Both the position numbers and the translations under genes were made by a program. Of a stretch of 64,000 nt of DNA, positions 4,829-28,189 are shown in pieces. Numbering within the stretch: the stretch's first letter is position 1; the number at the start of each line of letters is the position of its first letter. The notes under the pieces were generated by a model that searched no databases, had not been told where the DNA came from, and saw only the letters and a program-made list of their open reading frames with translations. The DNA lies in the NCBI RefSeq assembly GCF_002968285.2, contig NZ_CP134400.1, positions 2,108,001 to 2,172,000 on the forward strand, in the 5' to 3' direction. Source of the stretch: Mycobacterium sp. ITM-2016-00318. GTDB lineage: Bacteria > Actinomycetota > Actinomycetes > Mycobacteriales > Mycobacteriaceae.

Positions 4829-4854
4829 TTTACAAACTCGCCTAGGTTTGTAAA
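4829..4854. promoter_or_regulatory. Perfect palindromic operator TTTACA-N14-TGTAAA
   Basis: TTTACAAAC and GTTTGTAAA are exact inverted repeats separated by 8 bp. The site lies between the divergent kinase and CoA-transferase genes, 20 bp before the CoA-transferase start. Six further sites with the same half-site and 14-nt spacing occur upstream of other genes in the region. A TetR dimer, most simply one of the twins encoded nearby, is the likely binder. That link is inferred. Confidence 0.75.
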
Positions 4855-4874
4855 CCCCTGGAGGAGGGATCGAC

Positions 4875-6035
4875 ATGGCCGGACCTTTGGAGGGCATCCG
4901 AGTCGTCGAACTCGGCGTGTGGGTCGCGGGCCCCGCGGCGGGCGGCATCCTGGCCGACTGGGGAGCCGACGTGGTCAAGATCGAACCGCCGACGGGCGAC
5001 CCGGCTCGCATGTTCGGCCGGATGCTGGGCCTCGAGGATGGCGCGAGCCCGCCGTTCGAGATGGACAACCGCGGTAAGCGCAGCGTGGCGCTCGATCTCA
5101 CGACCGACGACGATCGAGGTCTCGCGCTCGAGTTGGTCGGCGGTGCCGATGTTTTCATCACCAACGTCCGGCCTGGCGCGCTTGGCCGCATCGGACTGGA
5201 CTTCGAGACGGTTGCCGAACTCAACCCCCGTCTGATCTACGGGCTGATCACCGGTTACGGGACGGCCGGGCCGGACGCCGACCGCGCCGCTTACGACGTC
5301 GCAGCGTTCTGGGCGCGGGCCGGGCTGGCGCATCTGCTGACGCGCCCAGGCGACACTCCGCCCTTCCAGCGCGGCGGCATGGGGGACCACACGGCGGGAA
5401 TGACGTTGGTGGCCGCGGTATCCGCCGCACTCGTCGCCCGTGCGCGCACCGGCGTCGGCCAACTGGTGTCCACCTCGCTGTACCGACAGGGCGCCTACAC
5501 CGTCAGCTTCGACCTGAACACGTTCCTCATGACAGGCCACGCCATCGCGATCGGGCAGCGCGAGTCCATGGCCAACCCCTGCATGAACAACTACGCCGCG
5601 GCGGACGGCAAGCGGTTCTGGATCGTCGGCCTCGAGGTCGATCGGCACTGGGGGCCACTGTGCCGGGTCGTTCGACGCCCCGACTGGCTTGCCACCTATC
5701 CGCGACCACGCGACCGGGCGGCCAACTCGGTGGAGATCATCGGCGCGCTCGACGAGATCTTCGCGACCAGGCCACTTGACGAGTGGGCGGAACTGTTTGC
5801 GGCTGAACCGGATTTCTTCTGGTCGCCGATCAACTCGGTCGAGGATGTCATCGCCGACGAGCAGTTCCACGCCGCCGGCGGCATCGTGTATGTGCCAGAC
5901 GGCGATTCCAGCGTTCCGATGGTGGCCACCCCCGCCGACTTCCACGGCACCCCGTGGGAGACCCGCTCTGCCGCGCCCGCGGTGGGCCAACACACAGAGG
6001 AAGTGCTCGCCGAGCTCAGGTCGCGGCGTGCTTGA
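4875..6035 (+). CDS. Family III CoA transferase (CaiB/BaiF type)
   Basis: 386 residues, typical length. The family start GPLEGIRVVELGVWVAGPAAGGILADWGADVVKIEPPTGDPAR is present. The nucleotide-binding RGKRSVALDL and DVFITNVRPGALGRIGLD region follow, where the Asp that carries the CoA thioester in this family is expected. Further on is GYGTAGPDADRAAYD. The enzyme moves CoA from one acyl-CoA to a carboxylic acid and so activates a substrate for beta-oxidation-like breakdown. A strong ribosome site, GGAGGAGGG, precedes the ATG. The palindromic operator just upstream suggests substrate-induced expression. Confidence 0.92.
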   Translation: MAGPLEGIRVVELGVWVAGPAAGGILADWGADVVKIEPPTGDPARMFGRMLGLEDGASPPFEMDNRGKRSVALDLTTDDDRGLALELVGGADVFITNVRPGALGRIGLDFETVAELNPRLIYGLITGYGTAGPDADRAAYDVAAFWARAGLAHLLTRPGDTPPFQRGGMGDHTAGMTLVAAVSAALVARARTGVGQLVSTSLYRQGAYTVSFDLNTFLMTGHAIAIGQRESMANPCMNNYAAADGKRFWIVGLEVDRHWGPLCRVVRRPDWLATYPRPRDRAANSVEIIGALDEIFATRPLDEWAELFAAEPDFFWSPINSVEDVIADEQFHAAGGIVYVPDGDSSVPMVATPADFHGTPWETRSAAPAVGQHTEEVLAELRSRRA

Positions 6036-6558
6036 CGCCAGCGGCATGGCGTAGTTGTGCGAGGAACTGGTCGTCGTCATCGCTGCGAACCAGGTAGTGC
6101 GACACCGCGACTCGGACTGCTGTCGCCACCGCGAGCGCGGCGTCGGGCCCCTGCGCGAGACGCTCGAGGCGATCGCGCATCAGCGGGATGGCACGGGCCA
6201 GTCGCCGGATGACCTGTGCCGGTTCGATGTCGATCATCCGCAGGCCGGGATAGGACTGCTGGTACTCGACGATGACGCGCAGCGCGGCATCGAGCTTTTC
6301 GCCTGCAGGCAGTCCTGCGGTCGCGTCGGCGACGGCGCGTTCGTAGTACTTGCGTTCCCAGACCACGAAGCCGTCGAGCAGATCCCGCTTCGACGCGAAC
6401 CAGCGATAGAGGGTCGGCCGTGAAACACCTGCCTGCAGCGCCACCTCTGACAGGCTCAACTTCGTCATGCCGTTGCGGCCCAGCACCTCAGCGGTCGCGG
6501 CGAGGATCCGTTGACGCGTCGAGTTGTCGTCCTCGACCGCCGCGTCCTTCATCGGCAT
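6016..6558 (-). CDS. TetR-family transcriptional regulator (twin B)
   Basis: A 180-residue TetR protein, paralogue of the regulator at 3076-3633. The helix-turn-helix is LSLSEVALQAGVSRPTLYRWFASKRDLL, and the C terminus reads SHYLVRSDDDDQFLAQLRHAAGVKHAAT. The ATG at 6558 (MPMKDAA) is used; an in-frame ATG at 6552 is also possible. Its 3' end overlaps the convergent CoA-transferase gene by 20 bp. The 5' end starts 4 bp from a TTTACA-N14-TGTCAC site shared with the divergent ferredoxin gene, the arrangement expected of an autoregulated repressor. Confidence 0.88.
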   Translation of the reverse strand: MPMKDAAVEDDNSTRQRILAATAEVLGRNGMTKLSLSEVALQAGVSRPTLYRWFASKRDLLDGFVVWERKYYERAVADATAGLPAGEKLDAALRVIVEYQQSYPGLRMIDIEPAQVIRRLARAIPLMRDRLERLAQGPDAALAVATAVRVAVSHYLVRSDDDDQFLAQLRHAAGVKHAAT

Positions 6559-6561
6559 AGC

Positions 6562-6590
6562 TTTACAAAAATCCAGTGAAATGTCACGCT
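6562..6590 (+). promoter_or_regulatory. Operator/promoter element TTTACA-N14-TGTCACGCT
   Basis: The element sits between twin TetR B (minus) and the ferredoxin gene (plus). TTTACA at 6562-6567 could be a -35 hexamer, with CACGCT at 6585-6590 in the -10 position after a 17-nt spacer. The outer hexamers also form a degenerate copy of the palindrome at 4829. The ferredoxin ATG is about 41 nt downstream behind AGGAGGG. Confidence 0.65.
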
Positions 6591-6631
6591 GAGTCTGTTT
6601 CGGCAGCCGCCCACGTTCGGCAGGAGGGATC

Positions 6632-6823
6632 ATGCGGGTCGAAGTGGACCTCGACAGGTGCACGGGACACGGCATCTGCGAATCGATCGCCGAGGACGTG
6701 TTCGAGGTGCAGGACGACGGCACGGTGCGCATCGAGGGGGATGAGCGGCCCGAGTCCGACCGCGACCGCATGCAGGGGGCCGTAACGCAGTGTCCCGCTG
6801 CGGCCCTGCGCCTGGTGGATTGA
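6632..6823 (+). CDS. Ferredoxin, [3Fe-4S] type
   Basis: A 63-residue electron carrier. The cluster motif is CTGHGIC (Cys10, His13, Cys16) with a later CP (VTQCPAAAL). His replaces the second of the usual four cysteines, which is the mark of the [3Fe-4S] ferredoxins that serve mycobacterial P450s and related oxygenases. Two P450 genes lie 2.7 and 14 kb away, but no ferredoxin reductase is present in the window. The start follows AGGAGGG at good spacing. A shared element at 6562-6590 suggests coregulation with the 8.6-13.9 kb operon. Confidence 0.92.
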   Translation: MRVEVDLDRCTGHGICESIAEDVFEVQDDGTVRIEGDERPESDRDRMQGAVTQCPAAALRLVD

Positions 6824-6824
6824 T

Positions 6825-6885
6825 CGCGAGATAGCATTCACGGCTGTGGAATGCGCGAGATCACGACCAGGAATGCTATTTCGCG
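6825..6885. terminator. Bidirectional hairpin terminator
   Basis: CGCGAGATAGCATTC at 6825-6839 pairs with GAATGCTATTTCGCG at 6871-6885 with one mismatch, around a 31-nt loop. It lies between the convergent ferredoxin and thioesterase genes. Long GC-rich intergenic hairpins of this kind are common between convergent mycobacterial genes. Confidence 0.65.
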
Positions 6886-6893
6886 GGTAGTTA

Positions 6894-7709
6894 CTAACGG
6901 CCGGGCATGGGGCGCATCAGCACGGACTGCTGGATCGCTCCGATGGCGCCCGCCTCGTCGAAAAGCGTGCCGATAGTGGTGCCGATACCGTCGGGGCCAT
7001 AGCTGGTTTCGGCGCGAACGCCGATCCACTCCCCATCGGGAATCCGGTGCACATGCGCAACCAGATCGGTGTTCATGAACATCCACTTCCGGATGTCGAG
7101 CTTGGACCCGATCCCGTTGGCGCAGTCGGCGACCGCAAACAGCCGCTCGAGCGCGGTCATGTTCTCGCCCTTGACCAGATCGACCTCCGGCTTGATCCAT
7201 GATTCGCGGGGTCCCTCGTTCAGCGGCTCGGTCAGCCATCGCCAATCTAGGCTGTGCACGTAGTTGCGATCCCAGTCCTTCTTCAGGTCGCGGCTCCACG
7301 CTTCGGCGACGGGTCGCAGCGCGGGAGCAGGGGCCTGCAGGAGGCCAGTGGTGTCGAGCTTCTGCAGCCGCCATCCGCTCGCCCTGGCGACAGGACGCGG
7401 CTGACCGTCGGGTCCTACTCCCAACATCTCGGCGCTGATCAGCTCGATCTGCTTGCCGGACCGCTCCCGCTGCGCACGCACCCAGATGTCGCCTTCGGCG
7501 GGCACGGGCCCCAACAGGTCGACCAGCACCCGGCTGAGACGGGTGTCGTCGCGCGCCTCGCAGCGTTCCAACGCGCGGGTCAACAGGGCCGAGACCGGTG
7601 CGCCGTGCTGGATCGCGGCCGTCCACGTGCTGCGCACCAGGTCGGTCGCGACGAATCTTTCGCCCTGCGGGTCGTTTTCGTCGACAAGCTCGTAGTACGA
7701 GTCACTCAT
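6894..7709 (-). CDS. Thioesterase-fold protein (TesB-like, double hotdog)
   Basis: 271 residues. The layout fits the acyl-CoA thioesterase-like double hotdog. FVATDLVRSTWTAAIQHGAPVSALLTRALER opens the first domain, and LVAHVHRIPDGEWIGVRAETSYGPDGIGTTIGTLFDEAGAIGAIQQSVLMRPM closes the second and contains the typical end strands. The expected activity is acyl-CoA hydrolysis, substrate unknown. The start overlaps the stop of the SMP-30 gene by 4 bp (ATGA), so the two are translated as one unit. Confidence 0.78.
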   Translation of the reverse strand: MSDSYYELVDENDPQGERFVATDLVRSTWTAAIQHGAPVSALLTRALERCEARDDTRLSRVLVDLLGPVPAEGDIWVRAQRERSGKQIELISAEMLGVGPDGQPRPVARASGWRLQKLDTTGLLQAPAPALRPVAEAWSRDLKKDWDRNYVHSLDWRWLTEPLNEGPRESWIKPEVDLVKGENMTALERLFAVADCANGIGSKLDIRKWMFMNTDLVAHVHRIPDGEWIGVRAETSYGPDGIGTTIGTLFDEAGAIGAIQQSVLMRPMPGR

Positions 7710-8524
7710 GGCAGGCCGGCTCCTGGGATGTCGACGGCGGTCACATCGAGTCGCGACAGTTTCGTCCCGAGAAGCCGTTGGGGATAGGCATCGGTACTCG
7801 ACAGCAGGAACAGCGTGCGGCGCTCCGGTCCACCGAGCGTGCAGGCGATCGCAGTGCGGTCACCGATGTCGATGCGATCGGTCACCGTGCCGCCCTCAAT
7901 GATTCGCTCGAACTGGTGGGCCAGCGTCATCGCCGCCCATACGCCGCCTTCTGCGTCGAGCGTGATGCCGTCGGGCGGCCCGTCGAGCCCGTCGGCGAAG
8001 ACCCGCCGATCCGAAAGCGATCCGTCGCCGCCGACAGCGAACGCGGTCAGACGCCTGCCGACCGACTCGGCGACGATCAGCGTCGATCCGTCCGGCGTGA
8101 TGACCATCCCGTTCGGGAAGTCGAGGTCCTCTGCCACGACGCTGACAGCGTTGTCGGGGTCCACCCGCACGATGACGCCGCCTTCGAACGCCTGCGAGCC
8201 GATGTAGGCGCGGCCATGCTCATCGACGACCATGTCGCCGATGCTCGCGGGCACGATGTCGGACAGGTCGGCGACGGCGTCCACGCTCTCGCCGTCATAG
8301 CGCAGCAGTGTGCGGTTCTCGGTGGAGGCGATCAGCAGCGACCCGTCGGGCCGAAACCCCAGCCCCGACGGGGCATGTCCGACAAGGGGCAGCGTGGTCA
8401 GATCACCCTGCAGGTCGACGGTGTGCACCGCCTCGCCGAGCATGTCGGAGAACCACAGCAGCCCCTCGAACCAGCGGGGGCCCTCCCCGAAGCAGAATCC
8501 GTTCGCCAGGGGCGTGAGGCTCAT
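7706..8524 (-). CDS. SMP-30/gluconolactonase-family lactonase
   Basis: 272 residues forming a six-bladed propeller. Metal-binding and family signatures include CFGEGPRWFEGLLWFSD near the start, DLDFPNGMVITPDGSTLIVAES in the middle and AEGGVWAAM later. Members hydrolyse lactones or act as calcium-dependent esterases. In a catabolic region a lactone opened after a Baeyer-Villiger or P450 step is a fair guess. It is first in a two-gene operon with the thioesterase-fold gene and divergent from the P450 operon across a shared operator at 8533-8561. Confidence 0.87.
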   Translation of the reverse strand: MSLTPLANGFCFGEGPRWFEGLLWFSDMLGEAVHTVDLQGDLTTLPLVGHAPSGLGFRPDGSLLIASTENRTLLRYDGESVDAVADLSDIVPASIGDMVVDEHGRAYIGSQAFEGGVIVRVDPDNAVSVVAEDLDFPNGMVITPDGSTLIVAESVGRRLTAFAVGGDGSLSDRRVFADGLDGPPDGITLDAEGGVWAAMTLAHQFERIIEGGTVTDRIDIGDRTAIACTLGGPERRTLFLLSSTDAYPQRLLGTKLSRLDVTAVDIPGAGLP

Positions 8525-8532
8525 CCGGTACC

Positions 8533-8561
8533 TTTACAAAACACGTCGTAAGTGTCACGCT
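8533..8561 (+). promoter_or_regulatory. Operator/promoter element TTTACA-N14-TGTCACGCT
   Basis: Same form as the sites at 6562 and 15607: TTTACA 8533-8538, 14 nt, TGTCACGCT 8553-8561. It lies between the SMP-30 gene and the plus-strand operon. CACGCT ends 6 nt before a GTG at 8568, the distance expected for a leaderless transcript. Confidence 0.68.
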
Positions 8562-8567
8562 CGCACC

Positions 8568-8597
8568 GTGTCGATGTCAAACAGGTGCTGGTCATGA
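8568..8597 (+). CDS. Possible 9-codon leaderless upstream ORF
   Basis: A GTG exactly 6 nt after the putative -10 opens a nine-codon frame reading VSMSNRCWS. Its TGA (8595-8597) overlaps the ATG of the next gene at 8594 as ATGA. This looks like a leaderless leader peptide coupled to translation of the operon. It may be chance, since the frame is short and codon use gives no support. Confidence 0.35.
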   Translation: MSMSNRCWS

Positions 8598-9337
8598 ACA
8601 TGAAGAAGTATCACAGCCATACCCTCATGTACCTGCACGAGACCATCGATCTCGGCTCCGGGCGCAGCGAGCAGTTCACCGCCGACGAGCGCTCGCGCGA
8701 AGACATATTCACCCAGGTTTTCAGCGACGTCTACCAGCCGATGATGGAAGAGCTCGGCGCGCGGCTGTTCGCGATCTGGGGGACGACACCGTTCAACGGG
8801 CACTGGCCGCAGGTGACTGTCGTCTGGGAGATCGACGCGTTCGCCGACTATGCGCGGATCGGTCGGGCGCAGTCACGAGGCGGCAGTCACGAGGCACCGT
8901 TCGGCACGTGGCGTGCGTTCCTGTCGGAGACCGGAGCCCGCGGCGAGGGCCGCATCATGTACGCGGGCAGGAGTAACAACACGCTGGCGCAGCTGAAGGA
9001 CGCGGGCTTCAGTGCTGGCCTCGTCATCCAGGAGATCATGCAGACCAAGCCTGGACGCCAGGACGACTACATCCGCGAGTTGGAGCGGCTGTATGTCCCG
9101 TGGTCGGAGAGCACCGGCAAGATGTGGCTCGGCTCGTTCATCACGACCTTCCGGTTCAACGAGGTCATTCACTACTGGGCGCTCGAGGGCGACTGGGCGT
9201 GCTTCGAAAACCACTACCCGTCTTGGAAAGACAGTCCGCCCGCCGAGATCGTCACCTGGATGAGCGTCGCGCCCGCACTTCGCGACGGATGGGAGGACTC
9301 GATCCTGCAGGCGCTACCCCCATCACCGCTGCAATGA
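8594..9337 (+). CDS. Uncharacterised protein, NIPSNAP-like duplicated barrel
   Basis: 247 residues that I cannot assign with certainty. The text has two similar halves: YLHETIDLGSGRSEQF through VVWEIDAFADYARIG, and VIQEIMQTKPGRQDDYIRELERLYVPW through IHYWALEGDWACFENHYPSW. Each half has the strand-helix pattern of a dimeric alpha/beta barrel such as NIPSNAP. It is first in a tightly packed operon (8594-13935), ending in a 4-bp overlap with the P450. A role as an oxygenase partner or substrate-binding protein is a guess from context. Confidence 0.65.
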   Translation: MNMKKYHSHTLMYLHETIDLGSGRSEQFTADERSREDIFTQVFSDVYQPMMEELGARLFAIWGTTPFNGHWPQVTVVWEIDAFADYARIGRAQSRGGSHEAPFGTWRAFLSETGARGEGRIMYAGRSNNTLAQLKDAGFSAGLVIQEIMQTKPGRQDDYIRELERLYVPWSESTGKMWLGSFITTFRFNEVIHYWALEGDWACFENHYPSWKDSPPAEIVTWMSVAPALRDGWEDSILQALPPSPLQ

Positions 9338-10575
9338 ACACGCCCGTGCGCCAACAGTTCTCATACGACCCTTTCGATCCTGCGGTGATGGCCGACCCGC
9401 TGCCGTATTACCGCATCCTGCGCGACCACCACCCGGTTTACTACATCGAGAAGTGGGACACATACGCCTTGTCGCGGTTCTCCGACATCTGGGAGGTGCT
9501 GGAGATCAACGACGGAACCTTCGTCGCATCGGAGGGGACACTGCCCGCCGCAACGGTTCTGGCTGCTCACAATGACGGCCCGGTGGCCGATCCGCCGCTG
9601 CATCCCATGCCGTTTCACGCGAACTTCGACAGCCCGATCTACGACAGCGTTCGGCGGTGCACTTCTGTTCCGTTCCGTCCGAGATCTGTCGCCAAGCTCG
9701 CCGACCGCATTCGTACGCTGGCCAACGAGCGCCTCGACGAACTGCTGCCGCGCGGAACCTTCGACCTCACCCAGGAGTACGGAGGCATTGTCGCCGCATC
9801 GGTGGTGTGCGAATTGCTCGGCCTTCCGGTCGATCTCGCCGCCGACATACTGGCCACCGTCAACGCGGGCAGCCTCGCCCAGCCCGGAAGCGGAGTCGAG
9901 GTGGCCAACGCCCGACCCGGATACCTTGAGTATCTGGTGCCGATTGTGCAGCGCAGCCGAAGCGGTGGCGGTGACGACCTCCCGATCGCCGCCAACCTCG
10001 TCGACTACCGGTTGCCTGACGGCTCCCCGTTGTCCGACATCGAGGCGGCCACCCAGATGCTCGGCGTCTTCATCGGCGGCACCGAAACCGTGCCGAAGAT
10101 CGTCGCGCACGGCCTGTGGGAGTTGGGCCTGCGGTCCGACCAGATGGCCGCCGTCCGTGCTGATCTGAACGCAGGAGTACCGAAGGTGCGGGAAGAGATG
10201 ATCCGCTACTGCGCGCCCGCCCAATGGTTCGCCCGCACCGTCCGCAAACCGTTCACCGTTGGCGACACCACCATCCAACCGGGTCAACGAATCATCATGC
10301 TGCTCGCTTCGGCCAACCGCGATGAGCGCGAGTACCCCGATCCGGACGCATTCATCTGGGATCGAACGATCGAGCGACTCTTGGCATTCGGCCGCGGACA
10401 GCACTTCTGTCTCGGCGTGCACCTGGCCCGGCTCGAAATCACGGTCATGGTGACCGAGTGGCTCAAACGGGTGCCCGACTTTCGGGTCCTGCGTGACTCG
10501 GCGTCGCGGCCGCCGTCGAGCTTCCAGTGGGGCTGGAACCGTGTTCCCGTCGACGTCCAGGTGGAGGGCGGCTGA
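9334..10575 (+). CDS. Cytochrome P450 (operon 1)
   Basis: 413 residues. The haem loop FGRGQHFCLGVHLARLE holds the thiolate cysteine, the K-helix ExxR is EMIR in VREEMIRYCAPAQWFAR, and the I-helix is MLGVFIGGTETVPKI, where GGTET replaces the usual AGxDT. It is a class I bacterial P450 that needs a ferredoxin and a reductase; the [3Fe-4S] ferredoxin at 6632 is a natural partner. It overlaps the previous gene by 4 bp (ATGA), and the ADH gene starts 1 bp after its stop. Family number and substrate cannot be given from sequence alone. Confidence 0.94.
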   Translation: MNTPVRQQFSYDPFDPAVMADPLPYYRILRDHHPVYYIEKWDTYALSRFSDIWEVLEINDGTFVASEGTLPAATVLAAHNDGPVADPPLHPMPFHANFDSPIYDSVRRCTSVPFRPRSVAKLADRIRTLANERLDELLPRGTFDLTQEYGGIVAASVVCELLGLPVDLAADILATVNAGSLAQPGSGVEVANARPGYLEYLVPIVQRSRSGGGDDLPIAANLVDYRLPDGSPLSDIEAATQMLGVFIGGTETVPKIVAHGLWELGLRSDQMAAVRADLNAGVPKVREEMIRYCAPAQWFARTVRKPFTVGDTTIQPGQRIIMLLASANRDEREYPDPDAFIWDRTIERLLAFGRGQHFCLGVHLARLEITVMVTEWLKRVPDFRVLRDSASRPPSSFQWGWNRVPVDVQVEGG

Positions 10576-10576
10576 G

Positions 10577-11545
10577 GTGTGGTCGTATCGGCTGGTGGCC
10601 CCGTACACCCTTGAGCGGACCGACATTCCGGAGAAGACGCCGGAGTCGCTCGCCGACGGTCAGGTGCTCGTCCGGTTCATGGCGGCGGGGGTGTGCGGCA
10701 GCGACCTTCCCGGCTTCCGCGGTGCCAAGGGTCGGCTTCCCGGCGATGTGGGAACGAGCGCGGCCGAAATGGACGGCTTCCCGATTCACGAGATCGTCGG
10801 GGAAGTCGTCGCCGGCAGGCACAGCAGCCACGAGATCGGCGACCGCGTCGTCGGGTGGGCATCAGGCTTCGACGGGTTGATGGAGTACATCACCGCCGAC
10901 GGTGACGGCCTTGCGCCGTTCGACCCGTCGTTGTCGCCACAGCATGCGGTGGCGCTGCAACCGCTGGCATGCGTGCTGTATGCGATCGAACAGCTTCCGG
11001 AGCTGTCGGGACGCCACGTCGCCGTAATCGGCCAGGGCTCGATCGGTCTGCTGTTCTCCTATGCGGTCAAGGCCGCAGGAGCGCGGCGTGTCACCGGGGT
11101 GGATCCGATCGACCGCGACCGCGTCGCCAAGGAGTTCGGTGTGGACACCGTCGTCCGCGCCACGAGCGACCGGTGGGTCAGCCACCTCGATGCGCACGAC
11201 AAGCCCGACATCGTGATCGAAGCCGTCGGTCATCAGGTCGCCACGCTCGGCCACGCGATCGAAGCGGCCGCGTTCGGGGGCACCGTCTTCTACTTCGGTG
11301 TCGCCGACGACGACAGCTACCCGATCAGCATGCGCACCATGCTGCGGAACAACCTGACGCTGAAATCCGGTGTGACAGTCGACCGTCGCCGCATGCTGAA
11401 TGCCGCAGGCGAGTTCGCGCGTGACCATCCGGAGTTACTCTCCGCGTATGTCACTCACACGTTCAGCGTCGACGACGTACAGCAGGCTTTCGAGCTGGCG
11501 AGCAGGCCGGCACCGGACCGCATCAAGATAGCGCTGGTTCGATGA
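10577..11545 (+). CDS. Zinc-type medium-chain alcohol dehydrogenase
   Basis: 322 residues of the MDR family. The GroES-like half has GVCGSD, with the catalytic zinc Cys, and FPIHEIVGEVVAGRH, the position of the GHE motif. The Rossmann half has VAVIGQGSIGLL and ends VQQAFELASRPAPDRIKIAL. The four-cysteine structural zinc loop is not present, as in some sorbitol- and threonine-dehydrogenase relatives. It probably oxidises the alcohol produced by the P450 encoded just before it. The GTG start lies 1 bp after the P450 stop, and the 3' end overlaps the aldolase gene by 4 bp. Confidence 0.88.
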   Translation: MWSYRLVAPYTLERTDIPEKTPESLADGQVLVRFMAAGVCGSDLPGFRGAKGRLPGDVGTSAAEMDGFPIHEIVGEVVAGRHSSHEIGDRVVGWASGFDGLMEYITADGDGLAPFDPSLSPQHAVALQPLACVLYAIEQLPELSGRHVAVIGQGSIGLLFSYAVKAAGARRVTGVDPIDRDRVAKEFGVDTVVRATSDRWVSHLDAHDKPDIVIEAVGHQVATLGHAIEAAAFGGTVFYFGVADDDSYPISMRTMLRNNLTLKSGVTVDRRRMLNAAGEFARDHPELLSAYVTHTFSVDDVQQAFELASRPAPDRIKIALVR

Positions 11546-12288
11546 TGCGCAGCAGGCTGCAGGAAGCCCTCGCCGCCAAGGAGCGGATATTCGGCGGCTG
11601 GGTGGTCGGACCCACCAACATCGGACCCGAAGAGTTCGCTGCGGCCGGATACGACTACGTCGGGATCGACATCCAGCACGGCTATCTCGACGACGTCGAC
11701 GTCGCGTTGCTGCTGCGCAGGCTCGAGCACGTTCCCATCGCCACCGCGGTGCGGCTGCCGTCGGCCGACCCGGCGCCGATCGGCCGCGTGCTCGACGCGG
11801 GCGCCGACGCGGTCATCATCGCCATGGTCGAGTCGCCCGAGCAGGCGGCCGCCGCCGTCGCGGCGACCCGGTATGCACCCGAGGGAGTGCGCAGCTTCGG
11901 GCCCCTGCGCGCGAGCCTCGGTGTCGATCCTGCCGATCACGAAGCGAGGACGAGCGTCTTCGCGATGATCGAGACCGCGAAAGGTCTTGCGGCGCTCGAC
12001 GACATCTGCGCGGTGCCGGGTCTGACCGGTGTCTATGTCGGTCCCGCCGACCTCGCGATGTCGCTGGGGCACCGCCCGGCCGAGAGCCTGACCACGCCTG
12101 CCGTTCTCGACGCGGTCGCGCGCATTCGGTCCGCCGTGTCTGACGCCGGCCTCGTTCCCGCCATTCACGCCAACGCGGGTAAGCCAGGGAAGGCCATGGC
12201 CGACATGGGCTTTCGGATGATCAGCCTCGCATCGGAATCGCAGGCCTTGCGGCGTGGCGCCGCCGAACACCTCGAGGAGGCGCAGTGA
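11542..12288 (+). CDS. HpcH/HpaI-family aldolase
   Basis: 248 residues, a class II (metal-dependent) pyruvate aldolase. Typical segments are FGGWVVGPTNIGPEEFAAAGYDYVGIDIQHGYLDD, IATAVRLP, AVIIAMVESPEQAAAAV, VFAMIETAKGL (metal Glu) and GVYVGPADLAMSLG (metal Asp). Such enzymes split 4-hydroxy-2-oxo acids into pyruvate and an aldehyde at the end of meta-cleavage or related routes. The gene is in the middle of operon 1 with 4-bp overlaps on both sides and could also serve the extradiol operon at 21-25.7 kb. Confidence 0.9.
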   Translation: MMRSRLQEALAAKERIFGGWVVGPTNIGPEEFAAAGYDYVGIDIQHGYLDDVDVALLLRRLEHVPIATAVRLPSADPAPIGRVLDAGADAVIIAMVESPEQAAAAVAATRYAPEGVRSFGPLRASLGVDPADHEARTSVFAMIETAKGLAALDDICAVPGLTGVYVGPADLAMSLGHRPAESLTTPAVLDAVARIRSAVSDAGLVPAIHANAGKPGKAMADMGFRMISLASESQALRRGAAEHLEEAQ

Positions 12289-13007
12289 CCGACCGGGTCG
12301 CGCTGGTGACCGGAGCCGCGCGAGGACAGGGTGCGGCGATCGTCAGACGGCTGCACGACGACGGGTATCTCGTCGCCGCATGCGATGTGCGTGCCGACGA
12401 GCTGGCGGCATCGATCGACGGCCTTGACGGGGTGGCCGCGGTGTCGCTCGACGTCACGTCCGAAGAGCAGTGGAACGCCGCCGTGCGCGAGATCGTCGAG
12501 CGGTTCGGATCCTTGACGACCTTGATCAACAACGCGGGCATCTTGCATCGGGCGTCGCTTGAGGACGAGACTCCCGCAGGCTTCGAGGGCAGCTGGCGGT
12601 TCAACTGCCTGGGACCGTTCCTCGGAATCCGTTCCACCCTCGCGCATCTCCGCGTCGCCGACGGCGCGGCCATCGTGAACACGTGCAGCACCGGCGCGAT
12701 CCGGCCGTTCCCCAATCACACCGCGTACGGCTCGTCGAAGTGGGCGCTGCGCGGGCTCACGCAGGCGGCCGCTGCGGAGCTGGCTCCGGCGGGCATTCGC
12801 GTCAACGCCGTCTTCCCTGGTCCGATCGCGACACCGATGCTCGATGCCGCGACGCAGGCGCGCCTCGCGGAGGCGGCGGCTTTCGGGCGGATCGGCGAAC
12901 CGCGCGAGGTCGCCGACGCCGTAGCGTTCTTGGCGTCCCAGCAGGCCTCGTTCATCACCGGGTCCGAGCTCGTCATCGACGGTGGCCAGATCCTGAAGAT
13001 CGGGTGA
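12285..13007 (+). CDS. Short-chain dehydrogenase/reductase
   Basis: 240 residues, classical SDR. Cofactor motif VTGAARGQGAAI is at the N terminus, NNAGIL follows, the active site has Ser in NTCSTG with YGSSK, and the C-terminal SELVIDGGQ closes the fold. It starts with GTG overlapping the aldolase stop by 4 bp. In operon 1 it probably oxidises or reduces a hydroxyl/ketone intermediate. No mycofactocin-type insertion is seen, unlike the SDR at 30062. Confidence 0.92.
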   Translation: MTDRVALVTGAARGQGAAIVRRLHDDGYLVAACDVRADELAASIDGLDGVAAVSLDVTSEEQWNAAVREIVERFGSLTTLINNAGILHRASLEDETPAGFEGSWRFNCLGPFLGIRSTLAHLRVADGAAIVNTCSTGAIRPFPNHTAYGSSKWALRGLTQAAAAELAPAGIRVNAVFPGPIATPMLDAATQARLAEAAAFGRIGEPREVADAVAFLASQQASFITGSELVIDGGQILKIG

Positions 13008-13011
13008 CACC

Positions 13012-13935
13012 GTGGCCACGTCGGTGTCCGAGCGGCTCGACCCCGCTCTTCGTCACCTCGCCGGGATGCGGGTCGATCTCTCGGCCGAAGTGCTTCCCGT
13101 GTTTCGCGACTCACTGAACCGGCGTCGGCGCGACGAGATGCGCACGATCGACGTCACCGACGTCGCCATCGAGGAGTTGCGGGCGGGTTCCGTGCCGGTT
13201 CGCATCTATCGAGGCGGGCCGTCGCCTGCCCCGGCGGTGATCTATTGCCACTCGGGCGGTTTCGTAGTGGGCAACCTCGACATCGACCATCGCCAGTGCG
13301 TGGAACTCGCCAGACGCGGCCGATGCACCGTCATCTCCGTCGACTACCGGCTGGCACCCGAGCATCCGTTCCCCGCTGCCATCGACGATGCGACGGCGGT
13401 ACTCCACTGGTCGTCCGACAACGCGAGCCGACTGCAGATCGACACCGATCGACTGGCGGTGGCAGGCAACAGCGCAGGTGGTGCGTTGGCGGCCTGTCTC
13501 GCGCAGCGCCACGCCTCGCGAATCCAGTTCCAGCTGTTACATCAACCCGTGCTGGACGACCGGCCCACCCCCTCGGCGGAGGAGTTCGACTCCACGCCCG
13601 GATTCGACGGGCCTGCCGTCGCATCGATGTGGCGTCTCTATCTGTCCGGCGCCGAGGGCTCGGCAGACGCCGCCCCTGGCCGCAGCGAGGAACTCGCCGG
13701 CCTGCCGAGCGCGCTGATCACCTGTTCGGAGCTGGACCCGCTGCGAGACGAAGCGATCGACTACGCGATGCGTCTCTTGCAGGCGGGCGTGGCGACCGAG
13801 ATGCACGTGTACGCGCGCACCTGTCACGGCTTCGATTCTTTTTTGCCGGAGTGGGAGACCAGCCGACAGCTGTATGCGTTACAGGGAACTGCATTGGCAC
13901 AGGCCTTCGGGCAAATTGTCGATCACGCTCGGTGA
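13012..13935 (+). CDS. Alpha/beta hydrolase of the hormone-sensitive-lipase family
   Basis: 307 residues. Oxyanion segment is CHSGGFVVG (HGGG variant), the nucleophile elbow is GNSAGG, the acid is in SELDPLRDEAIDYA and the histidine is in RTCHGFDSF. These form the expected Ser-Asp-His triad of the LipH/LipN-like esterase group. It is the last gene of operon 1, 4 bp after the SDR, starting at GTG 13012. It may cleave an ester or lactone intermediate, or release an acyl group from imported substrate. Confidence 0.9.
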   Translation: MATSVSERLDPALRHLAGMRVDLSAEVLPVFRDSLNRRRRDEMRTIDVTDVAIEELRAGSVPVRIYRGGPSPAPAVIYCHSGGFVVGNLDIDHRQCVELARRGRCTVISVDYRLAPEHPFPAAIDDATAVLHWSSDNASRLQIDTDRLAVAGNSAGGALAACLAQRHASRIQFQLLHQPVLDDRPTPSAEEFDSTPGFDGPAVASMWRLYLSGAEGSADAAPGRSEELAGLPSALITCSELDPLRDEAIDYAMRLLQAGVATEMHVYARTCHGFDSFLPEWETSRQLYALQGTALAQAFGQIVDHAR

Positions 13936-14169
13936 GTTCTGCGACCAGTGCTGATTTAACCATTAAACTCCGCCCGACTCATGATCAAATTAGCGAAATC
14001 CTTGATCAATCGAATTGTCGGCGGAGTAAATAAGGCTTGCGGTATTCCCGGCCGCCCGAGCAAACAAAACATTCTCTCGATATGGCTTTACCAATCCCGA
14101 TCCGTGTGTAAAACTTTGCCTCAACCGGGGGGTTAGCTGGGTCGCATTGGCAAATGGAGGGGTTCTGTC
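13936..14169 (+). other. AT-richer intergenic region
   Basis: This 234-bp stretch is clearly more AT-rich than its surroundings and holds no coding frame I can support. It contains the operator-like site at 14087-14112. Its right end has TGGAGGGG, the ribosome site for the secreted repeat protein. No clear terminator for operon 1 was seen. Confidence 0.6.
14087..14112. promoter_or_regulatory. Operator-like site TTTACC-N14-TGTAAA
   Basis: TTTACC (14087-14092) and TGTAAA (14107-14112) are separated by 14 nt, the same spacing as the perfect palindrome at 4829, with one half-site mismatch. It lies about 60 bp before the start of the secreted repeat protein gene, so it may bring that gene into the same regulon. 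Confidence 0.55.
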
Positions 14170-15600
14170 ATGGGTAAGCACAACAAGCCGCGGGGTATTA
14201 ATCGGGGCGGGCAGATCGCGGTCGCGGCGGCAGCGGCGACCGTGCTCGCGGGATGGGCGGCTCCGGTTGCCTACGCCGACGACGGCGCCGACACCGATAC
14301 CGGCTCGAATGCCGTCAGCAGGACGGCCGGCGCGGTCAAAGATGCAGTGGACTCCGTGCGGAAGACGGCGCGCGACGTCGGTTCCTCAGTGCGGGGCGCT
14401 GCGCGGGACTCAATGCAGGTCGGCTCCGGTGGCGCTGGCAGCTTACTGCGTCCCAAGTCCAACAGCCCGAGGTCGACGCTTTCGGCACAGCAAACCACCG
14501 GCGATACGCAACGCAATACTGTCGCGCCCGCCCTCGTGGCGCCCACGACTCCGGACAACGCCACGGGTTCGGTGACCATCCCCATTGTGGACGTCACTCT
14601 GCCGGGTCTGCCGGACGGGCCGACGTTCGCCCTGCCCACGCCGAGTCCCGGAATCCCGCCTGGTTTCGGCTCCCAGGGCAGCAACTTCTTCGGCCCCCTC
14701 GGTGCAGCAACCAACGGCAATAACCTGTTCGGGCTGAACTTCTTCAACATCGGCGATAACAACCTTCTAACCGCCAACAACATCGGCACGGGTCTTCAGG
14801 GTGTTGTCGCCGGAGACCGTAACTTCCTGGCGGGTAACCAGGTGATCGTGCCGACGAGTTTTGGCACCAACTTCGGCTGGATGGGTGACGACAACGGTGA
14901 CTTTGATCTGAACCTGCCCGACAGCCCAGGCGACCTGCTGAACCTGAACCCGTTCGAGATTCTGGCTTTAGAGCCGTCCGGTAACAACATCGTCGCCAGC
15001 CCCTTCAGCTACGGCAACAACACCTTCATCATGGGTGACGGCAACGACGGCACCGCGAACAACATCATGTTGGGTGCGGGCAACTCCGGCAACAACATGC
15101 ACTGGATCGGAGACAATGCCGACGGCGCCGGGAACAACATTGTCACCGGGATCGGCAGCCTCGGCAACAACATGTCGATCATCGGAGACAACAGCAACGA
15201 GTCAGGCAACAACTTCAATCTCGGCGCATTCGGCTTCGCCAACAATATGGGCCTTATCGGCAGCGCTGCCACCAGATCCGGCAACAACACCAACGTGTCG
15301 CCATTCGGTGGGTTCGCGCAGAATTTCGTGGTGGTAGGCGATGGCGCTGACTATTCCGGCAACAACTCCAACGTATCCGCGTTCGGTGGGTTCGCCCAGA
15401 ACATCGCGCTGATCGGCAGTGGGGCTGACGGATCCGGTAACAACTTCGGCATCTTCAACTTCGCGCTCGTCGGAAGCGGCGTCGAGGATGCCGGCAACAA
15501 CGAGGGCGGCGGCTTCAACTTCGCGATCTTCCCGAACGCAGGCCAGAACTGCACGGGCCCGGCCTGCTTCAACTTCTTCGGAGCGCAGTTCGGGAACTGA
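14170..15600 (+). CDS. Secreted Asn/Gly-rich repeat protein
   Basis: 476 residues, not assigned to a family I know. The N terminus (GKHNKPRGINRGGQIAVAAA) is a signal peptide, with likely cleavage after AYA at residue 36. A charged, Ala/Ser-rich stretch follows (about 37-110), then a Pro-rich linker (PTPSPGIPPGF). From about residue 185 the chain is rich in GNN, NNL and NNI. Residues 271-444 form repeats of 25-26 residues of the type SGNN-x(7-9)-NN/QN-x(3)-IGDG-x(5). Hydrophobic residues alternate, which suggests a beta-solenoid. The C terminus has a Cys pair (NCTGPAC). Likely an exported or surface protein. A ribosome site TGGAGGGG precedes the ATG. Confidence 0.8.
   Translation: MGKHNKPRGINRGGQIAVAAAAATVLAGWAAPVAYADDGADTDTGSNAVSRTAGAVKDAVDSVRKTARDVGSSVRGAARDSMQVGSGGAGSLLRPKSNSPRSTLSAQQTTGDTQRNTVAPALVAPTTPDNATGSVTIPIVDVTLPGLPDGPTFALPTPSPGIPPGFGSQGSNFFGPLGAATNGNNLFGLNFFNIGDNNLLTANNIGTGLQGVVAGDRNFLAGNQVIVPTSFGTNFGWMGDDNGDFDLNLPDSPGDLLNLNPFEILALEPSGNNIVASPFSYGNNTFIMGDGNDGTANNIMLGAGNSGNNMHWIGDNADGAGNNIVTGIGSLGNNMSIIGDNSNESGNNFNLGAFGFANNMGLIGSAATRSGNNTNVSPFGGFAQNFVVVGDGADYSGNNSNVSAFGGFAQNIALIGSGADGSGNNFGIFNFALVGSGVEDAGNNEGGGFNFAIFPNAGQNCTGPACFNFFGAQFGN
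14980..15501 (+). repeat. Seven-unit in-frame repeat coding for GNN-type units
   Basis: The segment encodes about seven successive units of 25-26 residues, each beginning SGNN or AGNN and carrying an internal I-G-D or I-G-S turn. The last two complete units (ending ADYSG and ADGSG) are the most alike and both contain NVSxFGGFAQN, which suggests recent duplication. Confidence 0.75.
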
Positions 15601-15606: not shown

Positions 15607-15635
15607 TTTACAGGTAGGCGTGCAAGTGTCACGCT
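15607..15635 (+). promoter_or_regulatory. Leaderless promoter/operator TTTACA-N14-TGTCACGCT
   Basis: TTTACA 15607-15612, 14 nt, TGTCACGCT 15627-15635, then 7 nt to the ATG at 15643. The distance from CACGCT to the ATG leaves no room for a 5' leader, so the acyl-CoA dehydrogenase mRNA is probably leaderless. Confidence 0.7.
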
Positions 15636-19547: not shown

Positions 19548-20363
19548 TCACCGGTAGGCGGTGACCCGGCCGACGAGCGCGATCTGACCGTCGGCGCCGA
19601 TCGCCTGCGCTTCGGCGACCCCGCTGCGCCTGCCGACTCGCAGCGCCGTTGCGGCATAACGCGATTGGTCGCCGCTGAAGAACTGCCGCAGGAAGTTCAC
19701 CCGTAACGACGCGGTGTTCAAGGGGTGTTCGGGTCGGTCGGCGTTCAGGGCGGCGCACGCCGCGAGCTCGAGCCCGGCCGCGGCCACCCCGCCGTGCACG
19801 ATCGCGAGGCTGTTGTTCAGCACCGGATTGGGTTGCTGGTGAATCACCGATGAGCCGTTGTCGTGCCCGAGGCGCAGCGCCATGATCTCGCCGAGCTCGG
19901 TCGGCCGTTGACCTGTCTCGGGCTCGGGCCATTCCTGCGGAAATTCGCCTGGATGTTTGACGTAAACCGACCGGACCGTGCCGACGCCGATGACCTCATC
20001 GTCCAGTGCGAGCTCACACATGCCGAACGCGGACGAGGCCCTTGTGCCGATGGGCCGCCCGGTGGCGACCACGGGTACGTCGGGGCCTTGCGCGATGACG
20101 GTCAACGCGGTCGGAGTCAGCTCGAGCGACAACTCGCTGGACACGGTCCACTCGTCGTCGGCGCGGCGGTAGTGGTTGACCAGCCCCGCGACGTGGTCGA
20201 CCAACACCGCGAGCGGTCCGGCGGTCGGTGTCAAGGTCGCCGGGTTGACCAAGCCCTTCACCGGCATCGAGCTGACGAACGGATCGGGGCTGTCCACAAG
20301 GTTGGCGATGCCGAACCGGCCAAGGGCGGTATTGGTTCCGTAAAGCAGCGGCGCTTCGGTCAT
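19548..20363 (-). CDS. PaaI-like thioesterase-fold protein (double hotdog)
   Basis: 271 residues with two hotdog halves. The second half has NNSLAIVHGGVAAAGLELAACAALN, the HGG signature of PaaI-type acyl-CoA thioesterases, followed by SLRVNFLRQFFSGDQSRYAATALRVGRRSGVAEAQAIG. It probably releases CoA from an intermediate or a dead-end product. The ATG overlaps the stop of the SnoaL-like gene upstream by 4 bp, so both are transcribed from the leaderless promoter at 20858-20886. Confidence 0.85.
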   Translation of the reverse strand: MTEAPLLYGTNTALGRFGIANLVDSPDPFVSSMPVKGLVNPATLTPTAGPLAVLVDHVAGLVNHYRRADDEWTVSSELSLELTPTALTVIAQGPDVPVVATGRPIGTRASSAFGMCELALDDEVIGVGTVRSVYVKHPGEFPQEWPEPETGQRPTELGEIMALRLGHDNGSSVIHQQPNPVLNNSLAIVHGGVAAAGLELAACAALNADRPEHPLNTASLRVNFLRQFFSGDQSRYAATALRVGRRSGVAEAQAIGADGQIALVGRVTAYR

Positions 20364-20851
20364 TTCATCACCCGGCCGGCGGCCCTACCGATCAACCGCC
20401 GCAGCCGGGGCGAGACATACACCGCGACAACGCCGTTGAAGATGTCCTCGCGCAGCCGGGTCAGCGTCGAGCTCGTGATGAGCCACTTCCCTTCGAGTTT
20501 CTCGTAGGTCTCGGCATAGTGTCCGTAGCCGCGTAGGTTCACGGCGGGCCCGAAGCGGACGACATCTTCGAGCGCCCACACGCCGCGCGCGCTGGTGGTC
20601 GACGTCAGCTCGATCTCGGGCGCGTGGACCTGATGCACCGTGGCCTGGTTCCGCAGGCCTTTGCGGGAGAAGGCGACGAATTCGTCGGCGCCGCGGATGA
20701 TCTTGCCGCCCGCCTGCGACGTGTCGCTGAGGAAATCGTCGCTGAACAACTTCCGCCACGCGTCCCAGTCTTTGCTGTCCAGAAGCCGACAGTAGCGGGC
20801 CTTGAGCTGCTTGATCGCCTCGATCTCCAGCAGCGCAGTGGCGTCGTCCAT
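20360..20851 (-). CDS. SnoaL/NTF2-like family protein
   Basis: 163 residues. The start EIEAIKQLKARYCRLLDSKDWDAWRKLFSDDFLSDTS is a standard SnoaL_4-type opening, followed by VHQVHAPEIELTSTTSARGVWALEDVVRF and a central-pocket strand GHYAETYEKLEGKWLITSSTLTRLR. The ATG at 20851 is 6 nt after a putative -10 and so is the natural leaderless start; a longer reading to 20917 would run through the promoter. It shares the fold with the protein at 2645 but they are not close. Catalytic role unknown. Confidence 0.85.
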   Translation of the reverse strand: MDDATALLEIEAIKQLKARYCRLLDSKDWDAWRKLFSDDFLSDTSQAGGKIIRGADEFVAFSRKGLRNQATVHQVHAPEIELTSTTSARGVWALEDVVRFGPAVNLRGYGHYAETYEKLEGKWLITSSTLTRLREDIFNGVVAVYVSPRLRRLIGRAAGRVMK

Positions 20852-20857
20852 GAGCAG

Positions 20858-20886
20858 AGAGTGACAGTTGGCTAGACAATTGTAAA
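20858..20886 (-). promoter_or_regulatory. Leaderless promoter/operator TTTACA-N14-TGTCACTCT
   Basis: Read on the minus strand: TTTACA (20886-20881), 14 nt, TGTCACTCT (20866-20858), then 6 nt to the ATG at 20851. Spacing is identical to the plus-strand copies at 6562, 8533 and 15607. Confidence 0.7.
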
Positions 20887-20932
20887 GTTGGCGTGGCGAC
20901 TCTGCGGGGTCGGCCATGCGACGTGGTCGCCG

Positions 20933-25714: not shown

Positions 25715-25733
25715 CGGAACCTCCTCAAGAAGT

Positions 25734-25747
25734 TGACGAAATCGTCA
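25734..25747. promoter_or_regulatory. TetR-type operator TGACGA-AA-TCGTCA
   Basis: Exact 6-bp inverted repeats separated by 2 bp, 20 bp upstream of the dioxygenase start and about 74 bp upstream of the divergent TetR start. Likely target of that TetR. Confidence 0.6.
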
Positions 25748-25777
25748 CATGCCGGGATCGCATCAGTCAACTCTTTC

Positions 25778-25791
25778 TGACGAAATCCTCA
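25778..25791. promoter_or_regulatory. Second, imperfect TGACGA-AA-TCCTCA site
   Basis: A copy of the 25734 site with one mismatch in the right arm. The two centres are 44 bp apart, about four helical turns, which would suit two dimers on one DNA face between the divergent promoters. Confidence 0.5.
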
Positions 25792-25808
25792 AAACTGACT
25801 ACCCCTGC

Positions 25809-25814
25809 TACCGT
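25809..25814 (+). promoter_or_regulatory. Probable -10 box (TACCGT) of a leaderless TetR transcript
   Basis: TACCGT fits the mycobacterial TAnnnT pattern and ends 6 nt before the GTG at 25821. AGGAGG fills exactly those 6 nt and touches the start codon, so it is too close to serve as a normal ribosome site. Confidence 0.45.
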
Positions 25815-25820
25815 AGGAGG

Positions 25821-26483: not shown

Positions 26484-26636
26484 TTTGTCGGTGCGAGCGC
26501 TACCTCATGCCCGACGAAAAATTTTGACACCAGGGGCGATCATGGCGATGACCAGGGCGAACGCGGCGTAGAGCCGCCCTGAAACCCTCATGCGCGATTT
26601 GCGCCGGACGCCTATGTCGGGCTTTCATATCTTGTT

Positions 26637-27422: not shown

Positions 27423-27426
27423 TCGC

Positions 27427-27475
27427 GATTTCGGCGCGCGCAGTCACGCTCAGCGTGACCCAGCGCGCCGAAATC
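27427..27475. terminator. Nested hairpin terminator between convergent genes
   Basis: GATTTCGGCGCGC (27427-27439) pairs with GCGCGCCGAAATC (27463-27475), and an inner stem GTCACGCT/AGCGTGAC (27443-27450, 27452-27459) closes on a 1-nt loop. It follows the GH16 stop and contains the stop codon of the DUF427 gene, so it serves both directions. Confidence 0.75.
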
Positions 27476-28151
27476 ACCAGCTCGGGAGTTCGGCCACGAC
27501 GTCGGCACGGGTGGTGTCGAACGCGAAATGCCCCCTGAGAGGCTCGGTTTCGGGCAGCGGATCGTCATAGCTCCATGCGACGTCGTCGACGACGGAGTCG
27601 CCGATCACCGCCGACCAGTACGTGGCCCAGCCCTTGTAATTGCAGTAGCTGCTGGTTTCCGAACGTCGCAACACATCGGTGCGCACATGTGACGGCGCGA
27701 CGTAGAGCAGCGGTGCAAGCGCCGTCTCGAAGACGATCATCGTGTCCGAGGTGTCGACAAGCGTCGTGCCGCCGACGGTGACCCGCAGCGCGCGGCTCGT
27801 CGGGCGGCAGTCGACTCGGTGGTAGGGGTTCGGCGGGTAGTGGACGAGGGTGCGTCCCTCTTCGACCCAGGTGTCCACCGCGTCCCACGCGACGTGCACG
27901 TATCCCGGCGCCTCCGCGACGGGTTCGTGGGGGAGGCCGCCGACCACGTCGGGCGGGAACGCGAACTGCAGTGGTCGTCCGGCCCGATGCACGAGCAGCG
28001 CCCGTTCCGTATCGAGCACTACTGAGCCGTCGCGCAACGCCTGGACGCGACGCGGGTGGGGTTCGACGAACACCACGTCGTCGGGCAGCGGCGGTGCGAA
28101 CCAGCCGGCGGGATCCTTGCTCAACGGACCGCGTCCGGTGACGAGACTCAT
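27474..28151 (-). CDS. DUF427 family protein
   Basis: 225 residues built from two DUF427 beta-rich modules. The clearest is the second: YHRVDCRPTSRALRVTVGGTTLVDTSDTMIVFETALAPLLYVAPSHVRTDVLRRSETSSYCNYKGWATYWSAVIGD. The SxYCxYKGxAxYW signature is diagnostic. The function of the family is not established. The ATG at 28151 is used rather than the upstream TTG at 28157. It is divergent from the WS/DGAT gene, with a weak copy of the regional operator between them. Confidence 0.9.
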   Translation of the reverse strand: MSLVTGRGPLSKDPAGWFAPPLPDDVVFVEPHPRRVQALRDGSVVLDTERALLVHRAGRPLQFAFPPDVVGGLPHEPVAEAPGYVHVAWDAVDTWVEEGRTLVHYPPNPYHRVDCRPTSRALRVTVGGTTLVDTSDTMIVFETALAPLLYVAPSHVRTDVLRRSETSSYCNYKGWATYWSAVIGDSVVDDVAWSYDDPLPETEPLRGHFAFDTTRADVVAELPSW

Positions 28152-28160
28152 TCCCAAAGC

Positions 28161-28189
28161 CTGACAAAAGACCGGCCAACCGTCACGCT
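28161..28189 (+). promoter_or_regulatory. Weak copy of the regional operator, CTGACA-N14-CGTCACGCT
   Basis: Same 14-nt spacing and the same GTCACGCT right part as the stronger sites, but the left hexamer is CTGACA. It lies between DUF427 (minus) and WS/DGAT (plus), about 105 bp before the latter. Confidence 0.45.

Follow-up and report, generated by a model that had tools for sequence, protein, structure and literature searches.

The question raised by this locus is which protein reads a short DNA motif that recurs in front of catabolic and lipid genes of Mycobacterium sp. ITM-2016-00318. The window analysed here, 64,000 nucleotides in length, comprises bases 2108001-2172000 of the 5.46-Mb chromosome. 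An initial annotation had reported in it seven sites, in which a hexamer close to TTTACA is followed after exactly 14 nt by TGTAAA or TGTCAC, and had named as candidate binders the twin TetR-family proteins encoded nearby, the predicted regulators TetR1 (3076..3633, minus strand; 185 aa with an assumed GTG start) and TetR2 (6016..6558, minus strand; 180 aa). We found that the operator set is real and conserved, and that, within a sample of 61 relatives, it is found only in the genus of the window. Judged from sequence, the sites would quite likely be the operators of two sister TetR-family repressors encoded among them.

Inspection of the window sequence showed that all seven sites were present. 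The predicted operator of the palindromic class (A-A', TTTACA with TGTAAA) occupies 4829..4854, between the divergent kinase-like gene (minus strand) and the CoA transferase gene (plus strand). It had been described as a perfect palindrome; its two 9-bp arms are indeed perfect, but its 8-bp centre is not palindromic. Predicted operators of the asymmetric class (A-B', TTTACA with TGTCAC) were located at 6562..6587 (plus; between TetR2 on the minus and the ferredoxin gene on the plus strand; matrix score 46.2), 8533..8558 (plus; between the SMP-30 gene on the minus strand and the operon starting at 8597 on the plus strand; 46.9), 15607..15632 (plus; 10 nt 5' of the acyl-CoA dehydrogenase ATG; 26.4) and 20861..20886 (minus; 9 nt 5' of the ATG at 20851 of a SnoaL-like gene on the minus strand; 27.8), the last of which had been placed at 20858. 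The predicted site at 28161..28186 (plus), between a DUF427 gene (minus) and a wax ester synthase/DGAT gene (plus), is degenerate (CTGACA-N14-CGTCAC) and was missed by a palindromic search of the window allowing three mismatches; it retains the outer AGC/GCT and scores 16.0, and in another locus one exact asymmetric site lies between homologues of the same two genes. The seventh, a probable operator TTTACC-N14-TGTAAA at 14087..14112 (plus), has the weakest score (-3.7) and is followed by a gene without a Pfam match at 1e-4. The earlier statement that six of the seven adjoin the 5' end of a catabolic or lipid gene holds when ferredoxin is included among such genes.

The full consensus is AGCTTTACAAAW-N8-AARTGTCACGCT, with a fixed 14-nt gap and the core TTTACA-N14-TGTCACGCT. 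When TTTACA-N14-TGTAAA was searched with up to three mismatches, the window gave six matches, compared with a mean of 1.66 and a maximum of 5 in 100 shuffles. The stricter pattern TTTAC-N15-TGTMAM occurs at nine distinct places in the 5.46-Mb genome, six of which fall in the window within 16 kb (P about 5e-14 for this clustering), and the reversed control occurs at one place genome-wide. A matrix was then built from 126 unique sites of 74 loci that had been fetched solely by similarity to TetR2 (window excluded, the near relative L010 included). In its scan of the window, the seven reported sites were the top seven (46.9 to -3.7); the next-best place scored -10.6, the reversed window at most -6.8, and five block shuffles at most -5.1. 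In these 74 loci, all from other records, TTTACA and TGTCAC were 14 nt apart 163 times, whereas all other gap lengths between 8 and 20 nt (12 of them) accounted for 2 cases together. The computational check by which the initial annotation would have been refuted turned out in its favour: in the window, genome and 248-genome scans (the last described below) the sites were far more frequent than in shuffled or reversed sequence.

Conservation extends beyond the hexamers. Among 207 unique asymmetric sites, TTTACA is preceded by C in 98% and followed by two A residues in 81% and 92%; an A stands two bases before TGTCAC in 91%, and G, C and T follow TGTCAC in 87%, 88% and 85%, these last three percentages being inflated because the pattern used to fetch some of the loci included GCT. 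At their outer ends the sites carry mirrored triplets, AGC on the left (71, 54 and 98%) and GCT on the right, and this symmetry points to a protein that reads a dyad. Strict matches elsewhere on the chromosome comprise one at 1003087, inside a called open reading frame (ORF) without a Pfam match; a degenerate one at 4744410, with a HIT-domain gene next downstream; and one at 2426450 (L127 2450-2475), which has the full TGTCACGCT, is an exact TTTACATAT-type site and is followed by an ORF without a Pfam match at 1e-5. The 2426450 site may be a distant regulon member. Similar TTTACATAT sites were also seen in G007, G012, G129 and G229.

The distribution of the motif was examined by exact-pattern search in 61 relatives from 22 genera. 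TTTAC-N15-TGTMAMGCT was detected in 28 of the 61, all belonging to the genus of the window (one of the 22), and its reversed control in 2. From a larger group, 248 genomes of the genus with a completeness of 90 or more were taken; TTTACA-N14-TGTCACGCT was found in 198 of them and its reversed control in none, and TetR2 homologues (E up to 1e-20) were found in 211. Site and TetR were both present in 197 genomes and both absent in 36; one genome had the site only and 14 had the TetR only (Fisher 1e-30), so that the two were concordant in 233 of 248. These joint counts were compiled by hand, with 17 TetR-negative genomes inferred by exclusion. The 61-genome sample gave 28 with both, 0 with the site only, 1 with the TetR only and 32 with neither. 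Moreover, 73 of the 74 TetR2-fetched loci contained the site, and the reversed pattern did not occur in their 1.31 Mb. As the initial annotation had anticipated, sites in other mycobacteria adjoin homologues of the genes that flank them in the window; for 35 of 173 asymmetric sites, no neighbouring gene was mapped as a window homologue. Away from the main cluster, G094 carries a separate exact site (L185 4937-4962) upstream of a short-chain dehydrogenase/reductase (SDR) gene of the NF006133 family, and similar separate sites were observed in G016 and G022. In G089, 13 exact sites were counted, 10 of them within 63 kb on contig C4 (107660-170195), which suggests an expanded regulon.

We next consider the two regulators. 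The TetR N-terminal DNA-binding domain PF00440 was found in both twins. Their helix-turn-helix is identical (21/21), residues 13-57 agree at 40 of 45 positions, and the rest of the chain agrees at 70 of 122. Since the helix-turn-helix is identical, both TetRs probably bind the same sites; the same DNA reading combined with different sensing would be the simplest inference from these identities. In a tree of 157 of 182 TetR sequences (after removal of identical matches, of those containing a stop and of those under 150 aa), a split of 90 versus 67 was supported at 100/99, with the window's TetR1 on the first side and TetR2 on the second, and the recognition region LSLSEVAxQAGVSRPTLYRWF is common to both sides. 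Relatives from genomes with a single match (G094, G016) and from 20-kb loci with a single TetR (M. persicum, M. innocens) fall on the TetR1 side. This makes one old duplication the most likely origin of the twins. Of the 74 loci, 55 carry two TetR genes of the twin family. TetR copy numbers in the 248-genome scan are lower bounds, 13 first-look candidates having been scored per genome. The gene order around the single-copy relatives includes a thioesterase, SMP-30, P450, alcohol dehydrogenase (ADH), aldolase and SDR. A TetR gene near 70 kb in G016 had raised the possibility of orthology with Rv0067c; the surroundings that we presume for Rv0067c do not match this gene order, and the link was dropped, though not disproved. 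The closest records to the window's TetR2 in the named collection were uncultured Mycobacteriaceae RBC062 (96%) and Mycolicibacterium stellerae (94%). Neither twin (P0001, P0002) matched an NCBIfam family at 1e-20, weaker matches being left out of the list, and a TetR2 structure prediction from five sequences reached a mean pLDDT of 65.6, which is too low.

A site lies at most 250 bp upstream of 56 of 59 TetR2 genes (the window counted), and TetR2 is probably autoregulated. Together with the concordance in 233 of 248 genomes, this supports the proposal that the twins are the candidate binders. The 74 loci contain 163 A-B sites, 41 A-A sites and no B-B site (TGTCAC in both arms). The asymmetric sites had been taken for versions of the palindrome; an asymmetric form does exist, but it is a conserved and commoner class (163 versus 41), not a decayed palindrome. 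The genes flanking the sites of the 74 loci were mapped with palindromic sites counted once, and labels such as P450b denote the best tblastn/blastp match to a window protein, orthology not being implied. Thirty-seven of the 41 palindromic sites lie between kinase (APH) and CoA-transferase (CaiB) homologues. Of the 173 asymmetric sites, 48 stand between TetR2 and a P450b-like gene, the latter on the TGTCAC side, and 52 have an SMP-30 homologue on the TTTACA side. Of 40 long loci that hold both TetRs, 29 had A-A sites, as did one of the 9 that hold only TetR1; this pattern may reflect gene content, not specificity.

The position of the sites relative to start codons indicates how they may act. 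In the window, the TGTCAC side faces 6632 (plus), 8597 (plus), 15643 (plus) and 20851 (minus), so that orientation tracks transcription; the ATG follows TGTCAC by 10 nt at the acyl-CoA dehydrogenase gene and by 9 nt at the SnoaL-like gene. In P450b homologues, an in-frame ATG or GTG stands exactly 9 nt past TGTCAC at 28 of 56 places and 8-10 nt past it at 39 of 56. In kinase homologues, the start is exactly 8 nt past TGTAAA at 30 of 43 places, all 30 of which carry TGTAAACT, so that a perfect TAAACT precedes the start by 6 nt. At another kinase place, the start is at 9 nt with.ANNNT; among the 12 without a start at 8-10 nt, nine have.ANNNT one base on, two have TANNNT and one has neither. CoA-transferase homologues show a start at 8-10 nt at 8 of 39 places. 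Mycobacterial promoters have the -10 consensus TANNNT, and leaderless starts are known in these bacteria. With this consensus and leaderless starts, TTTACA falls at the -35 position, with a gap of 16 or 17 to the -10. Operator and leaderless promoter, as predicted here, thus coincide at many, not all, targets. The fixed orientation of the sites is explained because the operator overlaps the core promoter. Nevertheless, this overlap leaves the lack of B-B sites not fully explained, for GTGACA would be equally good as a -35.

We therefore propose the following mechanism. The operator would be a 32-bp dyad, AGCTTTACAAAW-N8-AARTGTCACGCT, which covers the core promoter at many targets, with TTTACA at -35 and the -10 (xAnnnT) held in the TGTCACGCT (or TGTAAACT) arm. 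Since operator and core promoter would be one at these targets, a bound repressor must exclude polymerase; we infer repression rather than activation, and binding by both TetRs. RNA polymerase would thereby be kept from the kinase-TetR1-SnoaL, CoA transferase, TetR2, ferredoxin, SMP-30-thioesterase, 8597-13935, acyl-CoA dehydrogenase and SnoaL-thioesterase units; the 14170 and wax-ester synthase genes would perhaps be closed to it as well. Some two helical turns (20 bp) separate the half-site centres, which makes two dimers per operator a natural guess. A pathway metabolite, perhaps an acyl-CoA, would act as inducer by binding the diverged C-terminal domain and releasing the TetR. A more speculative extension, which we put forward tentatively and hold to be somewhat doubtful, is an AND gate: two repressors with the same DNA-reading head and diverged sensing would open the regulon only when two different metabolites are present, which would fit an old duplication kept in many species, and the unlike half-sites would let one TetR dominate one site class.

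Several observations weigh against the proposal that the twins repress through these sites. A site lies at most 250 bp upstream of TetR1 in just 7 of 72 cases. The start signature is seen in the window at 15643 and 20851 only, the ferredoxin and 8597 starts being farther off; no start stands 8-10 nt past the site at 17 of 56 P450b, 12 of 43 kinase, 31 of 39 CoA-transferase, 12 of 12 8597-type and 3 of 3 ferredoxin places, and.ANNNT is present at all 56 P450b places, whether a start follows or not. CACGCT is also a poor -10 by the consensus. Since the start-codon signature fails at several target genes, our confidence is slightly lowered. Furthermore, the counts are not independent of one another, since the genomes are related. 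Two exact sites are present in G258, one of them adjoining SMP-30 and alcohol dehydrogenase homologues, but its TetR match is only weak (E 4e-9), with no close homologue. Conversely, 14 genomes have the TetR without an exact site. Within 3.5 kb around the TetR of these 14, a site with one or two changes was found in G026, G076 and G077, one with three changes in G078 and G214, and none with up to three changes in the other nine. A broken TetR, proposed for five of the 14 from a stop inside the match, was rejected: the stop lies 134 residues past the recognition motif, close to where the protein ends naturally (135-136 residues past it in the window).

Some of these observations can be read differently. 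The motif might be a mere promoter type, for example that of an alternative sigma factor, with the TetR genes just two of its targets. Site orientation in the window tracks transcription, starts lie 6 nt past the -10 position at many targets, and G258 retains sites without a close TetR, all as such a promoter would have it. However, the half-sites are mirrored, including the outer AGC/GCT, a palindromic class exists, only nine strict matches occur genome-wide, and the sites are nearly confined to genomes with these TetRs; we thus consider a promoter type quite unlikely. Another regulator encoded elsewhere, with the TetR genes as passengers of the cluster, would likewise account for G258 and for the genomes with a TetR but no exact site. 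This is very improbable in view of the site within 250 bp of nearly every TetR2 gene and the agreement across the genus of the site with TetR, the cluster gene for which co-occurrence was scored.

Other alternatives keep the TetRs as the binding proteins and change what they do. A TetR1-TetR2 heterodimer could place one subunit on each unlike half-site, as the two halves of the fused Mce3R do. The absence of B-B sites beside the A-B and A-A ones and the two TetR genes in most loci speak for it, as does the binding of a 25-bp asymmetric operator by the fused double TetR Mce3R (PMC11667970). Nevertheless, genomes with one match keep asymmetric sites, two in G094 (97/97 candidates scored) and three in G016 (56/107 candidates scored), and the helix-turn-helix of the twins is the same, which makes the heterodimer unlikely. 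Activation rather than repression is hardly probable either. The weak -10 of the asymmetric sites, CACGCT, resembles those at activated promoters; however, the operator spans the -35 and -10 positions and leaves no space for polymerase, and most of the TetR proteins that have been studied are repressors. Repression by the two sister TetRs is the reading that we retain.

Systems of this kind are familiar, and we compared several. KstR and KstR2 (PMC3068626) are likewise TetR repressors of a catabolic cluster, with operators between divergent genes, autoregulation and conservation across species. The KstR2 operator is described there as the 14-bp palindrome AnCAAGnnCTTGnT, unlike the TTTACA-N14-TGTCAC found here, the KstR2 pattern itself not having been searched for; here the half-sites are 14 nt apart and mostly unlike, and two sister regulators share a single cluster. 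Neither twin reached the cut-off of the KstR model NF033703 (280 bits), and a third TetR of the window, at 25749, scored 19.1 bits. Mce3R (PMC11667970) has twin TetR modules and an asymmetric 25-bp operator, and when TetR2 was compared with the sequences of solved structures, the second half of Mce3R was the best of four matches, with E 5e-7 over the whole chain and no individual stretch passing 1e-5. That paper describes Mce3R, however, as a single polypeptide whose two recognition parts are not identical and act on a nonpalindromic sequence, whereas the twins here are separate ORFs (185 and 180 aa) with the same helix-turn-helix and a dyad operator. QacR is reported to bind a 28-bp palindrome as a tetramer (PMC4482099); operators of this type are similar in length to the present one and are likened to it by description only. 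By description, too, and with no Rv0067c sequence compared, Rv0067c (OxiR) can be set beside the twins as a mycobacterial TetR, in this case an M. tuberculosis protein that represses an oxidoreductase gene (PMC10956863). A limited search of the open-access literature found no description of the present motif or regulon; PMC4482099 presents the MEME motifs of mycobacterial TetRs, that of Rv0067c in its Table 2, as unreadable images, and the present motif may be among them under another name. The present case departs from the known systems in three respects: its half-sites are unlike, its operators overlap predicted leaderless promoters, and its two regulators are conserved as a pair.

The genes around the sites can be arranged into predicted units, with operon limits inferred from gene spacing. 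From the 4829 site, a leftward unit would begin with the gene for an APH/ecdysteroid-kinase-like protein (3677..4798, minus; PF01636, PF02958), continue downstream with TetR1 and end with a SnoaL-like protein (2645..3076, minus; PF13577), and a CoA transferase family III gene (4875..6035, plus; PF02515) would be read rightward. The 6562 site would serve TetR2 and the gene for a 63-aa 4Fe-4S ferredoxin (6632..6823, plus). From 8533, a presumed leftward operon would comprise the SMP-30/gluconolactonase-like gene (7706..8524, minus; PF08450) and an acyl-CoA thioesterase gene (6894..7709, minus). The corresponding rightward unit would start with a 246-aa protein (8597..9337, plus) that has no Pfam match at 1e-5, and for which a NIPSNAP-like label was a guess supported by no family search. 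It would continue with a cytochrome P450 (9334..10575, plus; nearest solved relative CYP130) and with Zn alcohol dehydrogenase-like, HpaI-type aldolase, SDR and LipP1-like esterase genes (10493..13935, plus; matches below the curated cut-offs).

Further predicted units are the gene after the weakest site, which encodes an Asn/Gly-rich repeat protein of 476 aa whose N-terminus is signal-like (14170..15600, plus); the acyl-CoA dehydrogenase (ACAD) gene (15643..16806, plus); and, read from the 20861 site, a SnoaL-like gene (20360..20851, minus) followed by a thioesterase gene (19548-20363, minus). The wax ester synthase/DGAT gene (28289..29725, plus; TIGR02946, above its cut-off) is perhaps under the 28161 site. 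As a whole, the gene set suggests that a lipid-like substrate is oxidised, with CoA activation and steps resembling beta-oxidation. The kinase, SMP-30-like and ACAD genes of the window all have sites, and a kinase and an ACAD are paired in 4-hydroxy-acid catabolism, as in LvaA/LvaC and ACAD10/11 (PMC11342911). This pathway stays a guess: among the matches listed (E up to 1e-35), the best solved relatives of the ACAD were Tcur3483 and 4x28, and the kinase-like protein had no solved-structure relative at 1e-5.

A leftward aromatic-degradation block (20933-25714) encodes a CYP199-like P450, an MhpA-like hydroxylase, a FAH-family protein and an extradiol dioxygenase. Estrogen degradation (aed genes; PMC12507874) was considered by description only for the P450/dioxygenase part and was not adopted. 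The matrix scan of the window gave no such site at the MhpA-like, FAH and extradiol dioxygenase genes (22123-25714). Between the extradiol dioxygenase gene and the third TetR gene (ORF from 25749), two TGACGA-rich stretches that resemble each other, TTGACGAAATCGTCA and TGACGAAATCCTCAA (25733-25792), are possibly that TetR's own operator. Since the 22123-25714 genes have no matrix site and adjoin a third TetR with different repeats, they are probably controlled separately from the twin-TetR sites.

For a catabolic cluster that is widespread in mycobacteria, this analysis puts forward an operator, a pair of regulators and the genes that they would control, and the motif can be searched for in any genome of the genus. 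Since operator and core promoter would coincide at many targets, often at apparently leaderless genes, the model predicts transcription starts to the base, and the constraints of promoter and operator could be separated over some 200 related sites. The twins would also make a clean example in which to study how duplicated repressors that share one DNA specificity split their sensing.

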